A DNA stretch of 64,000 nt. It comes from Thioclava nitratireducens. Lineage in GTDB: Bacteria; Pseudomonadota; Alphaproteobacteria; Rhodobacterales; Rhodobacteraceae. The stretch lies in the NCBI RefSeq assembly GCF_001940525.2, contig NZ_CP019437.1, positions 2,144,501-2,208,500 of the forward strand. Direction: 5' to 3'. The position numbers were made by a program, and so were the translations under genes. Below the pieces are notes generated by a model. It did not search any database. It was not told the DNA's origin and saw only the letters and a program-made list of their open reading frames with translations. Shown in pieces: positions 8,529 through 14,939 of this stretch. Positions within the stretch are counted from its first letter, which is position 1; each line of letters opens with the position of its first letter.

Positions 8529-11183
8529 ATGCCCAGCCTTAACGAAATCCGCTCCACTTTCCTCAATTACTTCGAGCGCAACGGCCACCGGGTCGTTGAT
8601 AGCTCGCCCCTCGTTCCGCGCAACGACCCGACGCTGATGTTCACCAATTCCGGCATGGTGCAGTTCAAGAACTGCTTCACCGGGGTGGAGAAGCGTGACT
8701 ACAACCGGGCGACGACTGCGCAGAAATGCGTGCGCGCCGGGGGCAAGCATAACGACCTCGACAATGTCGGCTACACTGCGCGCCACCATACCTTCTTCGA
8801 AATGCTGGGGAATTTTTCCTTCGGCGACTATTTCAAGGACGGCGCGATCCCCTTCGCCTGGGAGCTGCTGACCAAGGATTTCGATATTCCGAAAGAAAAG
8901 CTGCTGGTCACGGTTTACCATACCGATGACGAGGCGGCGGAGATGTGGAAGAAAGTCGCGGGTCTGCCGGACGAGCGGATCATCCGCATTCCGACCTCGG
9001 ACAATTTCTGGCAGATGGGCCCGACCGGGCCGTGCGGCCCCTGCACCGAGATTTTCTTCGATCACGGCGATCACATCTGGGGCGGCCCGCCCGGCTCGCC
9101 CGAGGAAGATGGCGACCGCTTCATCGAGATCTGGAACCTCGTTTTCATGCAGAACGAGCAGTTCGAGGACGGCTCGATGCGCGCGCTCGACATGCAGTCG
9201 ATCGACACCGGTATGGGGCTCGAGCGGATCGGTGCGCTGCTGCAGGGTAAGCACGACAATTACGATACCGACCTGATGCGCCACCTGATCGAGGCCTCGG
9301 CCAATGCGACCGATGGCGCGCCGGACGGGCCGGGGAACGTGCATCACCGCGTGATCGCGGATCACCTGCGTTCGACCTCGTTCCTGATCGCGGATGGCGT
9401 GATGCCCTCGGCGGACGGGCGTGGTTACGTCCTGCGCCGGATCATGCGCCGCGCGATGCGTCACGCGCACCTGCTGGGCGCGAAGGATCCGGTGATGCAC
9501 CGTCTTGTCCCCTCGCTGATCCGGGAGATGGGCGCGGCTTACCCCGAGCTTGGCCGGGCGCAGGCACTGATCGAAGAGACCCTTCTGGGCGAGGAAACCC
9601 GCTTCAAGACCACGCTCGATCGCGGGCTCAAGCTGCTCGACGAGGCGCTTCTGGACCTGCCCGAAGGGTCGAAGCTGCCGGGCGAGACCGCGTTCAAACT
9701 CTATGACACGTTTGGCTTCCCGCTCGATCTGACGCAGGACGCTCTGCGCGAGCGGGATCGCGAGGTCGACACCGAAGGGTTCGACTCCGCGATGGAAGAG
9801 CAGAAGGCGAAGGCGCGCGCCAGCTGGTCCGGCACGGGTGAAGCCACCAATGCCGCGATCTGGTTCGATCTGTCCGAGAAACTCGGCGCGACCGAATTCC
9901 TCGGCTATGACACCGAGACTGCCGAGGGGCAGATCACAGCGTTGGTAACGGACGGAGCCGAGATCGACACAGCGACCGGCGAGGTTCAGGTCGTGGTCAA
10001 CCAGACCCCGTTCTACGCTGAAAGCGGCGGCCAGATCGGCGATCGTGGCTGGATCGTGACCGACACAGGTAAAGCCGAGGTTACCGACACCAAGAAAGTC
10101 GCTGGCGTGTTCATCCATTTCGCGCGTGTGACCGAAGGCGAGATTGCGAAGGGGCAGGGCGCGAAGCTGGAAGTCGACCACGCCCGCCGCAGCGCGATCC
10201 GGGCGAACCACTCGGCCACGCACCTGCTGCACGAGGCGCTGCGCCGCACGCTGGGCGATCACGTGGCCCAACGCGGCTCGCTCAATGCCGAGGATCGTCT
10301 GCGCTTCGACTTCTCGCACAACAAGGCGCTCAGCCCGGAGGAAATCGCGAAGATCGAGCGCGAAGTGAATGAATTCATTCGCCAAAATACGCCGGTCGAC
10401 ACGCGGATCATGACGCCGGATGATGCTCGCGACCTGGGCGCGCAGGCGCTGTTTGGCGAGAAGTACGGCGACGAGGTGCGCGTCGTCTCGATGGGCGAAC
10501 TGGCCAATTCCGGCAAAGGTACAACCGGCAATGTCTATTCGCTCGAGCTGTGCGGCGGCACCCATGTGAAGCGCACCGGGGATATCGGTACTTTCGTGCT
10601 GACGAGCGAAGGCGCGTCGTCGTCTGGCGTGCGCCGGATCGAGGCGCTGACCGGCGATATCGCGATGGCCGAACTGCGCCGCCGCGACAAGCTGCTCACC
10701 GAGATCGAAGGGCTGATCAAGACCTCCGAGCAGGATGTGCTCGGGCGTCTGCAGGCGATCCTCGACGAGCGCAAGGCGCAGGCCAACGAGATCGCGCAGC
10801 TGCGTCGCGAACTTGCGATGGGCGGTGGTGCTTCCGGCGGCCCGGACGTAAGTGAAATCAATGGCTTGAAGTTCGTGCCTCAAGTGGTGTCCGGCGTGAC
10901 CGGCAAGGACCTTCCCGGCATCGTGGACGAGTTGAAGGACAAGGTCGGTTCCGGCGTGATCCTCGTCGTCGCGGATGCGGGCGGCAAGGCGGCCGTGGCG
11001 GCTGGCGTGACCAAGGACCTGACCGAGCGTGTGAGCGCGGTCGACCTGGTGAAGGCCGCCGCGCAGGCTCTTGGTGGGAAAGGCGGCGGTGGCCGTCCCG
11101 ATATGGCGCAAGCCGGCGGGGCCGATCCATCGAAAGCCGGGGAGGCCGTTGCGGCCGTGAAAACTTTGTTGGAGGAACTTTGA
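8529..11183 (+). CDS. alaS: alanyl-tRNA synthetase
   Basis: 884 residues, normal for the family. It charges tRNA-Ala. The class II aminoacylation domain is N-terminal ([16 protein letters not shown], then [18 protein letters not shown]). The editing domain has the zinc-binding [10 protein letters not shown] and [13 protein letters not shown] motifs. A C-terminal coiled-coil and oligomerisation domain ends the protein. ATG at 8529 gives the usual [15 protein letters not shown] start. The stop overlaps the ATG of the DUF1330 gene (TGATG). Confidence 0.98.
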
Positions 11184-11488
11184 TGGCAGGCGCATTCTGG
11201 ATCGCCCATGTAACCGTGAAAGACGCCGAGGCGTATGGCAAATATGCCGAAGGCGCGGGGCCCGCGATCGCGAAACATGGCGGGCGGTTCCTCGCCCGTG
11301 GCGCGCGCTACGTGCAGCTGGAAGGCAATGACCGGGCGCGCAACGTGGTTGCCTGGTTCCCCTCGCTGGAGGCGGCCGAAACCTGCTACCGCTCCGACGA
11401 CTATCAGGCGGCGCTGGCCCATGCCGAAGGCGCGGCCGAACGCGATCTGGTGATCGTCGAGGCGATGGACGACGTCGAGTTCAAGTGA
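11183..11488 (+). CDS. DUF1330 domain protein
   Basis: 101 residues from ATG at 11183, preceded by GGAGG at 11171-11175 inside the end of alaS. The pattern AFWIAHVTVKDAEAYGKYA followed by GGRFLARG matches the DUF1330 ferredoxin-like (dimeric alpha-beta barrel) fold. Its start codon overlaps the alaS stop, so it is translationally coupled to alaS. No function is established for the family; ABM-like fold proteins are often small-molecule enzymes. A terminator follows. Confidence 0.87.
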   Translation: MAGAFWIAHVTVKDAEAYGKYAEGAGPAIAKHGGRFLARGARYVQLEGNDRARNVVAWFPSLEAAETCYRSDDYQAALAHAEGAAERDLVIVEAMDDVEFK

Positions 11489-11519
11489 AGATCGTCGCGT
11501 AAATCGCTGATCAGAAGTC

Positions 11520-11554
11520 CGAAAAGGGGTGGCTGGGGCTGCCCCTTTTCGTTT
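11520..11554 (+). terminator. intrinsic terminator of alaS-DUF1330
   Basis: CGAAAAGGGG and CCCCTTTTCG make a 10-bp stem around a 12-base loop, followed by TTTT. It separates this unit from the cysS leader region. Confidence 0.82.
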
Positions 11555-11576
11555 TCGGGCGCGCCCAATTTTGCTC

Positions 11577-11606
11577 TGGACCTTTGGGCGGGCGGCGGCT
11601 TATCTT
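11577..11606 (+). promoter_or_regulatory. candidate promoter for the cysS leader transcript
   Basis: TGGACC (11577-11582), an 18-base spacer and TATCTT (11601-11606) resemble -35 and -10 boxes. The start point would be near 11613, exactly at the ATG of the short leader ORF. Both boxes are imperfect, so this is an inference. Confidence 0.35.
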
Positions 11607-11612
11607 CTCGCC

Positions 11613-11654
11613 ATGACCACGAAGACCATCATCATCTGCTGCATTATCCGCTGA
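11613..11654 (+). CDS. leader peptide [13 protein letters not shown] (candidate Ile/Cys attenuator)
   Basis: This 13-codon ORF ends 89 bases before cysS. Five of its residues are Ile and two adjacent ones are Cys, so 7 of the last 8 residues before the final Arg are Ile or Cys. The operon it precedes encodes cysteinyl-tRNA synthetase and citramalate synthase, the first enzyme of the threonine-independent isoleucine pathway. The codon content thus matches both downstream products. There is no Shine-Dalgarno site, but a -10-like box six bases before the ATG suggests a leaderless ORF. Ribosome stalling at these codons could control folding of the 89-base spacer. Translation is not proven. Confidence 0.55.
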
Positions 11655-11663
11655 CATCGTCAC

Positions 11664-11711
11664 GCGGGCCGGTCTTCTCTTTCCAAAAACGACATGACCT
11701 TGTAAGCCCGC
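11664..11711 (+). promoter_or_regulatory. candidate hairpin in the cysS leader
   Basis: GCGGGC (11664-11669) can pair with GCCCGC (11706-11711), and the inner GGTC (11671-11674) with GACC (11696-11699). The structure starts ten bases after the leader-peptide stop, where a translating ribosome would interfere with it. No T-tract follows, so if it regulates, it may act on cysS translation or Rho access and not as an intrinsic terminator. Confidence 0.35.
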
Positions 11712-11743
11712 CGGCAGGTGCCGCCGACCCTTTGCGAGGACTT

Positions 11744-13144
11744 ATGACCCAGATCCGTTTGCGCAATTCCCTGACCCGGAAGGTCGAGGATTTCCATCCC
11801 ATCGATGCGAAGAACGTGCGGATGTATCTCTGCGGGCCGACCGTTTACGACCGCGCCCATCTCGGCAACGCGCGGCCCGTGGTGGTGTTCGACGTGCTCT
11901 ACCGGCTGCTGCGCCACGTCTACGGGCCGGAACACGTCACCTATGTGCGCAATTTCACGGATGTCGATGACAAGATCAACGCGACGGCGCTGGCGCGGAA
12001 GGAAGCCGGGGCCGAAGGGTCGCTCGAAGAGCTGATCCGCGCGCGGACCGAGGAGACCATCGGCTGGTATCATGCCGACATGGATGCGCTCGGCGCCTTG
12101 CGCCCCGATCAGGAACCGCGCGCGACGGATTATATCGGCGCGATGATCGCGATGATCGAAAAGCTGATCGAAGACGGTCACGCCTATGCCGCCGAGGGGC
12201 ATGTGCTGTTCCGGGTGCGCAGCTACAAGGACTATGGCGCGCTGTCGGGGCGGACGGTCGACGACATGATGGCGGGCGCGCGGGTCGAGGTCGCGCCCTT
12301 CAAGGAAGACCCGATGGATTTCGTGCTCTGGAAACCCTCCGACGAGGGGCTGCCGGGCTGGGAGAGCCCGTGGGGCAGGGGCCGTCCGGGCTGGCATATC
12401 GAATGCTCGGCCATGTCTTACGAGCTGCTGGGTGCGTCTTTCGACATCCATGGCGGCGGCATCGACCTGCAATTCCCGCACCACGAGAACGAGATCGCGC
12501 AAAGCTGCTGCGCGCATCCCGAGGGCTCTTTCGCGAACTACTGGCTGCATAACGAGATGCTACAGGTCGAGGGCAAGAAGATGTCCAAGAGCTTGGGCAA
12601 TTTCTTCACCGTGCGCGATCTGCTCGACGGCCATGACGGCGAGAAGGGCATTCCCGGCGAGGTGATCCGGTTTGTGTTCCTGCAGACGCATTATACGAAG
12701 CCGATGGACTGGACGGCGGAGAAGGCGCGGACGGCGGCTGCGACCCTGCGCAAGTGGCGGACAACTGTTGATGGGGTCACACCTTCACCCGAGGCGGCGC
12801 CGGAAGTGATCGCTGCGCTCGCCGACGATCTTAACACGGCGGGTGCCATCGCGGCGCTGCATAAAATCGACGATCCAGCAGTTCTGAAGGCTTCCGCTGC
12901 GATGCTCGGCCTGCTTGACGATGGGATGGGCGATTGGGTCGCGGCACCGGAGGCCGATCTCTCGGGGCTCGCCGACAAGCTCGTTGCTTTGCGTGCTAAT
13001 GCGATGGAAACCAAGGACTTCGCGCCGGTCGATGCAATGAAACAGGCGCTCGTCGCGGCAGGTGTCGAGGTGCGCATGTCGAAGGCCGGGGTGGAATTGC
13101 TGCCCGGATCCGATTTCGACCCCGCCAAGCTGGAGGGTCTGTGA
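11744..13144 (+). CDS. cysS: cysteinyl-tRNA synthetase
   Basis: 466 residues. It attaches cysteine to tRNA-Cys. YLCGPTVYD holds the first zinc cysteine, and HLGNARP is the HIGH-type motif. [10 protein letters not shown] and [10 protein letters not shown] supply the other zinc ligands, and [10 protein letters not shown] is the KMSKS loop. ATG at 11744 follows GAGGA. The stop overlaps an ATG (TGATG) that opens a 58-codon frame reaching the cimA start, so cysS and cimA look co-transcribed. The Ile/Cys leader ORF lies upstream. Confidence 0.97.
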
Positions 13145-13320
13145 TGGCTTACGCAACGCAGGTTTGCCCCCGGCCCGAGGGTGGGGGCATCTTCGCCCCC
13201 GCCCTGGGGGGCGGGTCGGGGGCGAACCGGATCGCAAGCGATCCGGTGGTTCTTGGACCCTTAGGGCGCGGCCCGACGTGCCGCTTGGCGGAACGTAACC
13301 TCGACGGAGGCAACCAATGA
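13144..13320 (+). CDS. 58-codon open frame bridging cysS and cimA (doubtful gene)
   Basis: It begins in the TGATG overlap with cysS and ends in an ATGA overlap with cimA. The product would be Gly/Pro/Ala-rich and low in complexity, with no known family. It also contains the 22-base inverted repeat at 13226-13247. It may be chance in GC-rich DNA. If read, it would carry ribosomes from cysS to cimA and keep the operon coupled. Confidence 0.2.
   Translation: MAYATQVCPRPEGGGIFAPALGGGSGANRIASDPVVLGPLGRGPTCRLAERNLDGGNQ
13226..13247. repeat. intergenic inverted repeat (REP-like hairpin)
   Basis: ACCGGATCG, loop CAAG, CGATCCGGT form a perfect 9-bp stem in a G/C-block stretch between cysS and cimA. 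Such hairpins are scattered in Rhodobacterales intergenic DNA. A related GC-rich hairpin is at 63187-63201. Confidence 0.6.
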
Positions 13321-14939
13321 CCAAACAACGCCTCTATCTCTACGACACGACGCTCCGCGATGGGCAGCAATCGGCGGGCGTCCAGTTCTCGGTGCCTGAG
13401 AAGATCGAGATCGCCAAGGCGCTCGACGCAATCGGCATCGACTATATCGAAGGCGGCTGGCCCGGGGCGAACCCGACCGACAGCGATTTCTTCGAAGCGC
13501 GGCCCGAGACGCGGGCGACCTTCACGGCTTTCGGGATGACCAAGCGGGCAGGGCGCTCGGCCGCGAATGACGACGTTCTCGCGGGCGTGATGAACGCGAA
13601 TACGCCCGCCGTCTGCCTCGTCGGCAAGACGCATGACTACCACGTCACCACCGCGCTCGGGATCACGCTGGAGGAGAACCTAGAGAATATCCGCGCCTCG
13701 GTCGCGCATATGGTGGCGCAAGGTCGCGAGGCGCTGTTCGATGCGGAGCATTTCTTCGACGGCTACAAGGCGAACCCGGGCTATGCGCTGGAGTGCTGCC
13801 GTGCGGCCTTTGAGGCGGGCGCGCGCTGGATCGTGCTTTGCGACACCAATGGCGGCACGCTGCCGGGCGAGATCGGCAAGATCGTCGAGGCGGTGATCGC
13901 GGCGGGCATTCCCGGCGACCGTCTCGGCATCCATTGCCATGACGATACCGGCAACGCCGCGGCGGGCAGTCTCGCCGCGGTCGAGGCCGGTGCGCGCCAG
14001 ATCCAAGGCACGCTCAACGGTCTGGGCGAGCGCTGCGGCAACGCGAACCTGATCACGCTGATCCCGACGCTGCTCTTGAAAGAGCCTTACGCGTCGACGC
14101 TCGACACTGGCATCAGCCATGAGAGCCTGCGCGGGATCACCAAGCTCTCGCGCAAGCTCGACGATATCCTGAACCGGGTGCCGCTGCGCTCGGCGCCCTA
14201 TGTGGGCGCCTCGGCCTTTACTCATAAGGCTGGTCTGCACGCTTCGGCGATCCTCAAAAATCCAGACACTTACGAGCATATCGATCCGGCTGTGGTGGGG
14301 AATACGCGGCTGATCCCGATGTCCAACCAGGCCGGCCAATCGAACCTGCGCGCGCGGCTCAAGGGGATGGGGATCGAGGTCGAAAAGGACGATCCGCGCC
14401 TCGCGCGTATCCTCGATCTGATCAAGGAACGTGAGGATCAGGGCTATGCCTATGACGGCGCTCAGGCGAGTTTCGAGCTGCTCGCGCGTGCCGAACTGGG
14501 GCAGCTGCCGAATTTCTTCGAGGTGAAGCGCTACAAGGTCACTGTGGAGCGTCGGAAGAACCGCTACGACAAGATGGTTTCTATTTCGGAAGCCGTCGTG
14601 GTGGTCAAGGTCGGCGGCAAGAAGATGCTCTCGGTCTCGGAAAGTATGGACGAGCAGGGCCATGACCGCGGCCCGGTGAACGCACTCTCGAAAGCCCTGT
14701 CGAAGGATCTGGGCCCCTATCAGAACCTCATCGACGACATGAAACTGGTCGATTTCCGGGTCCGTATCACCCAAGGCGGCACCGAGGCCGTGACCCGCGT
14801 CATCATCGACAGCGAAGACGGCGCAGGCCAGCGCTGGTCCACCGTGGGCGTGTCGCCGAACATAGTCGACGCGAGTTTCGAGGCGCTCCTCGACGCGATG
14901 ATCTGGAAACTGCTGCGCGACGGGGCGCATCCGGCATGA
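13317..14939 (+). CDS. cimA: (R)-citramalate synthase
   Basis: 540 residues. It condenses pyruvate and acetyl-CoA to citramalate, the entry to isoleucine synthesis that bypasses threonine. The HMGL-like TIM barrel starts YDTTLRDGQQSAGVQFS. Metal-binding HCHDDTGNA and the glycine-rich NGLGERCGNANL follow. The C-terminal LeuA-type allosteric domain (about residues 400-540) would bind the feedback inhibitor. The length and the GGWPGANPTD pattern separate it from LeuA. ATG at 13317 follows GACGGAGG. It overlaps the next gene by four bases (ATGA). Confidence 0.93.
   Translation: MTKQRLYLYDTTLRDGQQSAGVQFSVPEKIEIAKALDAIGIDYIEGGWPGANPTDSDFFEARPETRATFTAFGMTKRAGRSAANDDVLAGVMNANTPAVCLVGKTHDYHVTTALGITLEENLENIRASVAHMVAQGREALFDAEHFFDGYKANPGYALECCRAAFEAGARWIVLCDTNGGTLPGEIGKIVEAVIAAGIPGDRLGIHCHDDTGNAAAGSLAAVEAGARQIQGTLNGLGERCGNANLITLIPTLLLKEPYASTLDTGISHESLRGITKLSRKLDDILNRVPLRSAPYVGASAFTHKAGLHASAILKNPDTYEHIDPAVVGNTRLIPMSNQAGQSNLRARLKGMGIEVEKDDPRLARILDLIKEREDQGYAYDGAQASFELLARAELGQLPNFFEVKRYKVTVERRKNRYDKMVSISEAVVVVKVGGKKMLSVSESMDEQGHDRGPVNALSKALSKDLGPYQNLIDDMKLVDFRVRITQGGTEAVTRVIIDSEDGAGQRWSTVGVSPNIVDASFEALLDAMIWKLLRDGAHPA

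Follow-up and report, generated by a model that had tools for sequence, protein, structure and literature searches.

A leader peptide rich in isoleucine and cysteine before cysS-cimA in Thioclava nitratireducens: a possible two-amino-acid attenuator

The genes for cysteinyl-tRNA synthetase (cysS) and citramalate synthase (cimA) of Thioclava nitratireducens are preceded by a short open reading frame (ORF) in which isoleucine and cysteine codons are crowded together, raising the question of whether one leader peptide can report the supply of both amino acids to the genes behind it. The locus was analysed within a stretch of 64,000 nucleotides (positions 2,144,501 to 2,208,500 of contig NZ_CP019437.1), termed the window, to which all positions refer. 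An earlier note on this DNA had placed an ORF of 13 codons, including five Ile and two adjacent Cys, upstream of cysS and had named cysS and cimA as the genes behind it; the coordinates and the composition of the ORF were confirmed, as were both genes by model scores above their cut-offs. The genes and signals of the region are the following.

11180-11488: DUF1330 gene, the 5' neighbour of the leader, with a terminator-like inverted repeat behind it
11613..11654, + strand: leader upstream ORF (uORF) of 13 codons, from the ATG at 11613 to a TGA that ends at 11654, recognized by sequence and conservation
11736..11740, + strand: Shine-Dalgarno sequence of cysS (GAGGA), recognized by sequence
11744..13144, + strand: cysS, cysteinyl-tRNA synthetase, with its ATG at 11744; TIGR00435, 413 bits (cut-off 340)
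13317..14939, + strand: cimA, citramalate synthase; TIGR00977, 581 bits (cut-off 450)

According to the TIGR00977 assignment, the cimA product catalyses the first step of threonine-independent isoleucine synthesis. The gap between cysS and cimA measured 172 nt in the window and a median of 102 nt in relatives, where it was at most 30 nt in 71/251 and at most 300 nt in 235/251 loci, and sigma-70 and terminator pattern scans of the window displayed neither a promoter nor a terminator pattern within it. Since the two genes lie close together in most genomes and the gap holds no such pattern, they are likely co-transcribed in the window. A gene for a squalene/phytoene synthase family protein (PF00494; 14936-15700) overlaps the end of cimA by four bases and may therefore be the third gene of the operon. 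The stretch between cysS and cimA (13145-13316) is GC-rich and inverted-repeat-like, with similar GC-rich stretches in three congener loci (L004, L010, and L011), and was not among the repeats listed by a search of the window for repeats of at least 40 nt. An Rfam scan of 11100-12100 (E up to 1) yielded two matches at 11454-11566, which were set aside because they scored far under the gathering scores and lay upstream of the leader.

The comparative analysis was based on a search for CysS in 41 relatives and in 256 family genomes taken at nearly one per genus, 249 of which gave a match. Regions were taken from the 140 better-scoring genomes and from 39 more, deliberately including some without a linked cimA, and the best 80 named loci were added; as the genomes were not chosen at random, leader presence rates differ from those of a random sample. 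Among the 164 family loci first examined, including 15 of the window's own genus (L104 was skipped before ORF choice and L097 begins near a contig end), 147 had a short ORF with Cys near its end at a similar distance upstream of cysS, and TGA was the stop codon of 142 of these. Typical leader peptides in the relatives were MKSICIICCIIPC, MNRTCIIICCIIPC, and MTRCSIIICICITD. The 13-codon leader ORF is genuine. Read in frame, the 147 leaders consisted of 29.7% Ile, 22.0% Cys, and 15.7% Thr, and the two other reading frames, rich in Ala/Pro/Ser and in Leu/His/Tyr, had neither Ile nor Cys among their top twelve residues. In a set of 210 leaders with 2,659 residues (ORFs obtained from 213 profile-positive leaders, two of the choices, L122 and L183, looking wrong), Ile was the commonest residue at 29.8% and Cys reached 21.9%, compared to base-composition expectations of 5.2% and 2.7%; the ORFs were chosen for a Cys within the last nine residues, which inflates the Cys percentage, and Ile was no selection criterion. 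At least two Ile were present in 204/210 leaders and at least two Cys in 196/210, and both amino acids occurred within codons -3 to -5 before the stop, just upstream of a hairpin described below (hairpin A), in 197/210. By these counts, comparison shows the ORF and both its codon types to be kept beside cysS-cimA, a check that the earlier note had proposed, and the leader is enriched in codons for the amino acids tied to the genes downstream, as expected of an attenuator. Threonine (15.8% of residues) was considered as a third sensed residue and not adopted as one, because it stands mostly near the ORF start or at -2, where its codon lies within hairpin A. A covariance model of the leader (R1), which held only four pairs from RNAalifold and was therefore used as the sequence profile that it mainly is, matched 4/289 genomes sampled across the class at E up to 1e-4 with stricter filters, and every match belonged to the family of the window.

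The cysteine half of this leader is already in print. The element uORFC-8-2 was described from 145 examples upstream of cysS in Rhodobacterales as a uORF beginning with AUG in which two Cys codons stand in tandem, usually at positions 14-15, together with two stems, the first holding the Cys codons, and a 3' U-run, for which ribosome-mediated attenuation through tRNA(Cys) was proposed (PMC8632094). The leader of the window shares with it the position before cysS, the taxonomic order, the tandem Cys codons, what look like stems with a U-run, and the proposed attenuation, and is almost certainly the same element, unlike the published form in that its Cys occupy positions 9-10. Matched to the text description of the published stems, the window has two helices (O and A, below) that flank the Cys codons, and a U-rich tract (PMC8632094). 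Isoleucine, citramalate, cimA, and leaderless are all absent from the available main text on uORFC-8-2 (PMC8632094), and none of the matches listed from the open-licence PMC literature described the Ile half or the pairing of cysS with cimA. What goes beyond uORFC-8-2, which in the available text concerns Cys only, is the Ile half, the association with cimA, the leaderless promoter, and helices O and B; the Ile half, its link with cimA, and the leaderless arrangement of three helices seem to be new. The earlier note, which knew of no described dual Ile/Cys leader, was written without awareness that the Cys half had been published.

In the mechanism as published (PMC8632094), the ribosome would sense tRNA(Cys) for CysS, and the Ile codons would be spacing or slow filler. 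This explanation is unlikely for the leaders studied here. Ile is more frequent than Cys in them, and Val (0.7% vs. 4.5% expected) and Leu (2.1% vs. 11.6% expected) are avoided across the 210 leaders, both of which speak against it; leaders that adjoin cimA with a single Ile, which speak for it, are rare (L101, L106, L234, and L244).

Comparison at the codon level bears on the same alternative. Between closely related leaders of equal length (49 pairs), Ile codons were identical in 214, synonymous in 54, and non-synonymous in 114 cases, and the codons of residues other than Ile, Cys, and Met in 164, 48, and 361, so that codons were kept or synonymous in 268/382 cases for Ile vs. 212/573 for the other residues (Fisher 4e-24, the comparisons being counted in both directions and non-independent). 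Synonymous change was more frequent at Ile codons than at others in these pairs, the bias that the earlier note had suggested looking for. Cys took the place of Ile in 34 cases and Val in one; an apparent exchange of Ile and Cys at a single column is partly a one-codon register shift and no proof by itself. The 210 leaders preferred ATT (452) over ATC (336) and ATA (5), unlike the cysS genes of 129 loci (ATC 1738, ATT 447, and ATA 70), and the Ile codon at -3 was ATT in 133/137 cases among the 147 leaders. Because ATC is usual in cysS, the near-fixed ATT at -3 points to an extra nucleotide-level constraint there, and both this sign and the general preference for ATT count in favour of a leader that senses Cys only. 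The order and spacing of Ile and Cys also differed among leaders (ICCII, CICI, CIIC, and GCCIIT). Ribosome arrest by the nascent Ile/Cys chain itself, triggered by a small molecule, would suit so short and strongly conserved a peptide, and is extremely improbable since the variable order and spacing and the interchange of Ile and Cys are better fitted by codon reading than by a fixed arrest sequence.

The distribution of the leader in the family followed that of cimA behind cysS. In 263 non-redundant family loci (ten non-family loci were left out, and then those with <150 nt upstream, an unknown downstream side, a short CysS, or duplicates), the leader was present in 213/251 loci with cimA behind cysS and in 0/12 without (Fisher 7e-10, kinship ignored), and 38 of the 251 cimA-linked loci lacked it. 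Presence was defined as a profile score of at least 20 bits; L278 (21.6 bits), a hairpin remnant without an ORF, was set to absent by hand, and L118 (0 bits) was counted as absent although it bears a Cys-rich ORF. On a CysS tree built with FastTree, the loss of cimA linkage amounted to 12 changes, and in eight independent pairs (starred branches) the leader changed in the same direction in a mean of 7.3 and in the opposite direction in 0 (median sign-test p 0.016). A genome scan for cimA gave no match in 17/395 family genomes, and a search for cysS in 12 of these 17 gave six informative loci (L302, L303, L304, L305, L307, and L310); G659, another of the 12, had no cysS match. The contigs of L306, L308, L309, L311, and L312 end inside, at, or soon after cysS, and all five loci have Ile/Cys leaders. 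An Ile-rich leader was found in 0/18 informative loci without cimA behind cysS, several of them congeners or apparent near relatives and all but seven (named contigs) covered by a genome-wide cimA search, which argues against Ile codons as filler. A possible exception is G125 (L173/L308), with an Ile-rich leader, no cimA in a fragmentary assembly, and a contig that runs 658 nt past cysS. Where cimA has been relocated (G072, L176), no short Ile/Cys ORF was found upstream of it. Part of the joint loss of cimA and leader could reflect a single rearrangement on both sides of cysS, although L118, L172, and L278 still have downstream portions of the leader region. Comparison among these loci shows that the Ile-rich leader goes with cimA behind cysS.

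The genus of G128 had no cimA behind cysS in the three species examined (L299-L301; 1.5 kb past cysS), and the two of these species searched across the genome, G128 and G558, gave no cimA match at all. An ORF was found at the leader position in all three species (MDWICCLCRA, MDWICCLCRA, and MEWICCPC), each with three Cys and one Ile, and the species with MEWICCPC displayed synonymous changes at the Ile and Cys codons relative to the other two. Set against the at least two Ile of nearly all cimA-linked leaders, these ORFs suggest that Cys stayed with cysS and that Ile dwindled with the loss of cimA, which again disfavours a role for Cys only; the genus is one lineage and not a proof, because single-Ile leaders also occur beside cimA. 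The helices described below do not fold in the same form in the loci of this genus. The leader profile fails to match L118, and the homology of its Cys-rich ORF to the leader rests on position and context. By eye and as a single case, L310 (G624), a locus without cimA, displayed a sequence resembling a promoter and an ORF that contains a single Cys and lacks Ile.

Alignment of 129 leaders at the ATG revealed a CTTGGC-like element at about -37 to -32, a GCTA-like element at about -14 to -11, and a C at -1 in 87%. A Shine-Dalgarno-like motif preceded 15/129 leader ORFs vs. 117/129 cysS starts, and together with the promoter-like profile at the uORF ATG, this rarity looks like a promoter whose transcript starts at the AUG. 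The corresponding elements in the window, with a further candidate nearer to cysS, are as follows.

11576..11581, + strand: -35-like element of promoter P1 (CTGGAC; CTTGGC in relatives), from the profile of 129 leaders
11601..11606, + strand: -10-like element of P1 (TATCTT; mostly GCTA/GTTA-like in relatives), from the profile of 129 leaders and the sequence
11700..11709, + strand: degenerate copy of a TTGCTAAGCC-like motif, a possible -10 element of a second promoter P2 for cysS, from the motif in loci without the uORF

The P1 elements of the window (CTGGAC and TATCTT) are a partial match to the profile of the relatives, and sigma-70 and terminator pattern scans gave no match at the leader. 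The earlier note had pointed to TATCTT six bases before the ATG and to a leaderless transcript; the element is located at 11601-11606, and an mRNA start at the ATG fits the promoter profile of the 129 relatives. The leader mRNA is probably leaderless, with its AUG at or next to +1. The sequence GCTANNNC is taken here to resemble the Caulobacter -10 consensus.

Between the leader and cysS, a TTGCTAAG-like motif recurs, also in several loci lacking the uORF, and a TTGCTAAGCC-like motif persists in several uORF-less loci (L072, L105 as a variant, and L156), which suggests a second promoter P2; such a P2-like site could bypass leader control of cysS. In some loci without the leader, a T-rich element stands about 17 nt upstream of the TTGCTAAGCC-like motif. 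Were cysS driven mainly by P2, the leader would be expressed and of minor importance for cysS, and the P1 transcript would act mainly in trans as a small RNA or peptide like rnTrpL/peTrpL of Sinorhizobium. The persistence of the motif upstream of cysS in relatives without the leader fits this explanation, as does the trans-acting product reported for another leaderless leader (PMC7298713). We nonetheless give it very little credence: the leader is associated with cimA, and one of its helices (helix B) joins the leader to sequence just past the P2 motif and covaries, which suggests selection for transcripts that span both.

The comparison of relatives also supports three helices in the predicted leader RNA, placed in the window as follows.

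11621..11627, + strand: 5' strand of helix O (GAAGACC), from the fold and from covariation between the ORF start and the U-rich tract
11628..11646, + strand: unpaired stretch from helix O to hairpin A that holds most Ile/Cys codons, from the fold
11647..11668, + strand: hairpin A (11647-11655 with 11659-11668, one bulge), terminator-like and overlapping the uORF stop, from the fold and covariation
11664..11669, + strand: 5' strand of helix B (GCGGGC), common to hairpin A, from the fold and covariation
11671..11677, + strand: 3' strand of helix O (GGUCUUC), within the U-rich tract at 11669-11684, from the fold and covariation
11706..11711, + strand: 3' strand of helix B (GCCCGC), from the fold and covariation

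Helix O joins the opening bases of the ORF, in some leaders the AUG among them, to the U-rich tract; hairpin A pairs the last codons and the stop with GUCA.GCGGG; and helix B pairs GCGGGC with GCCCGC about 40 nt downstream. Because GCGGG is common to both, O plus A and B are mutually exclusive. A hairpin with bulges had been proposed to follow the ORF directly; the hairpin itself was recovered, with one bulge, in a position that overlaps the ORF end and includes the stop. The energy of each sequence's own partner strands was compared with that of partners swapped between species, in leaders spaced on the CysS tree (206/210 leaders, 124 after spacing; 204/210 in the preceding comparison). Own partners reached -8.78, -10.71, and -15.56 kcal/mol for O, A, and B vs. 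-6.77, -9.77, and -14.33 kcal/mol for swapped ones in the 124 spaced leaders (z = -11.5, -8.4, and -8.5; 0/2,000 permutations each reached the observed value), and two control segment pairs displayed no gain over swaps in the same leaders. In an earlier control set of 204 leaders, the inner ORF paired with the U-rich tract had a small gain (-4.11 vs. -3.93, sd 0.07), and the upstream-DNA control had none beyond noise. Pair counts in 129 aligned sequences (of the 147 leaders, 14 congeners and L063, L080, L118, and L122 were left out) gave 83.5% paired cells for A and 87.2% for B, compared to means of 81.3% and 83.2% in 1,000 whole-arm shuffles, none of which was as high, and the outer pair of helix B alternated between G-C (48) and C-G (29). 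The hairpins covary in both the aligned and the spaced set, in line with the covariation analysis proposed beforehand.

The predicted fold of the window forms O and A (z -1.8 vs. shuffles for O plus A), with the whole region (z -0.6) and hairpin A alone (z -0.8) folding little better than shuffles. Blocking the ORF in the fold model increased the mean number of predicted helix B pairs across 196 loci from 3.5 to 7.6, and the number in the window (L001) from 0.13 to 1.69; even then, helix B is weakly predicted in the window. Over the relatives, the leader has mutually exclusive helices that a stalled ribosome could switch, helix B being weak in the window's own fold. In some genera (L019, L042, L053, L106, and L109), hairpin A carries an additional GC-rich inverted repeat in its loop, which may correspond to the rare form with three stems noted for uORFC-8-2 (PMC8632094).

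We consider it likely that the leader works by ribosome-mediated attenuation, in which an empty tRNA(Ile) or an empty tRNA(Cys) opens cysS-cimA. Transcription from P1 would begin at the AUG of the leader ORF. With charged tRNA(Ile) and tRNA(Cys) plentiful, the first ribosome would complete the ORF and depart, upon which helix O would form between the ORF start and the U-rich tract, and hairpin A between the ORF end and GUCA.GCGGG, giving a terminator-like structure upstream of cysS. With either tRNA empty, the ribosome would stall on the Ile/Cys stretch and cover the 5' strands of O and A (judged by footprint size, strands of O or A or both), and the GCGGGC so freed would pair with GCCCGC (helix B), letting transcription proceed into cysS-cimA. 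The Cys codons would report the CysS product and the Ile codons the pathway fed by CimA. The dual Ile/Cys reading put forward in the earlier note is supported by conservation, synonymous bias, the promoter profile, and covariation; the stalling and the regulation, with a two-state switch, OR logic, and termination as the output, are what we infer from the sequence comparison. More tentatively, and with some doubt, the leader may be a two-input (Ile OR Cys) attenuator that couples the tRNA synthetase of one amino acid to the synthesis of an unrelated other, that evolves in modular fashion, each set of codons persisting only as long as the operon contains the corresponding gene, and whose leaderless mRNA start pairs with the U-rich tract, so that only ribosome loading before the tract is made would set the switch.

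Readout by termination is the weakest step of the attenuation model. Hairpin A matched no terminator pattern in the scan of the window, and at least five T in the 8-mer starting 0-2 nt past its stem were found in 63/206 leaders, the other 143/206 failing; by pattern, hairpin A is a weak and not a textbook terminator. The pairing of the U-rich tract with the ORF start would be unusual for an intrinsic terminator, and helix B forms downstream of the tract, thus too late for the usual competition with termination. Translational attenuation, in which the switch between O plus A and B would hide or free the cysS ribosome-binding site, could account for the weak canonical terminator and for the extension of helix B towards the cysS start. 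It appears quite improbable, as blocking the leader increased the predicted accessibility of the Shine-Dalgarno sequence by >0.1 in 46 and lowered it in 35 of 196 loci, with a mean change of 0.013.

For attenuation by a ribosome that reads Ile and Cys codons, a parallel is offered by Escherichia coli, where thrL reads Thr and Ile, and ilvL reads Ile, Val, and Leu. These leaders are like that proposed for the window in that several amino acids of the controlled operon are read by one leader; their amino acids share biosynthetic steps, whereas Ile and Cys do not, and one of the genes here encodes a tRNA synthetase. Canestrari et al. 2020 reportedly described polycysteine leaderless short ORFs of mycobacteria. 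Going by the title of that work, these resemble what is proposed for the window, with a leaderless Cys-codon leader and attenuation, and differ in reading Cys only, before other genes, and in an unrelated phylum. Actinobacterial Cys leaders are likewise Cys-codon leaders with attenuation, again for Cys only, with other genes, and in an unrelated phylum, and those of Mycobacterium are described as having no conserved terminator hairpin (PMC1262725). The trpL attenuator of the alphaproteobacterium Sinorhizobium meliloti has a leader peptide of 14 residues whose ATG is the transcript start, as predicted for the window, and differs in reading Trp and controlling trpE(G) (PMC7298713).

If the dual reading is true, what was published as a Cys attenuator would sense two amino acids that are unrelated in metabolism, and there would be a reason why cysS and cimA stay together in the family. 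As suggested by the genus without cimA, whose ORF is rich in Cys and poor in Ile, the codons of a leader may track the genes of its operon, and the sensed amino acids could then be predicted from comparative data alone. In Roseobacter denitrificans on pyruvate, about 80% of Ile is made via citramalate and 20% via threonine (PMC2749216), and with citramalate as the main Ile route there, reading Ile at cimA makes sense; an Ile response, if confirmed, would provide a handle on this route. The sole threonine dehydratase match to TIGR01127 in the genome of the window (L295, G000:C1:275463-276599) scored 224.6 bits (cut-off 378.75). The same genome encodes a leader-like ORF, MDAILLVVVGAKRMGR, with Ile, Leu, and Val codons upstream of ilvB (L293), followed by a GC-rich inverted repeat and a T-run, which is probably an ordinary branched-chain attenuator.
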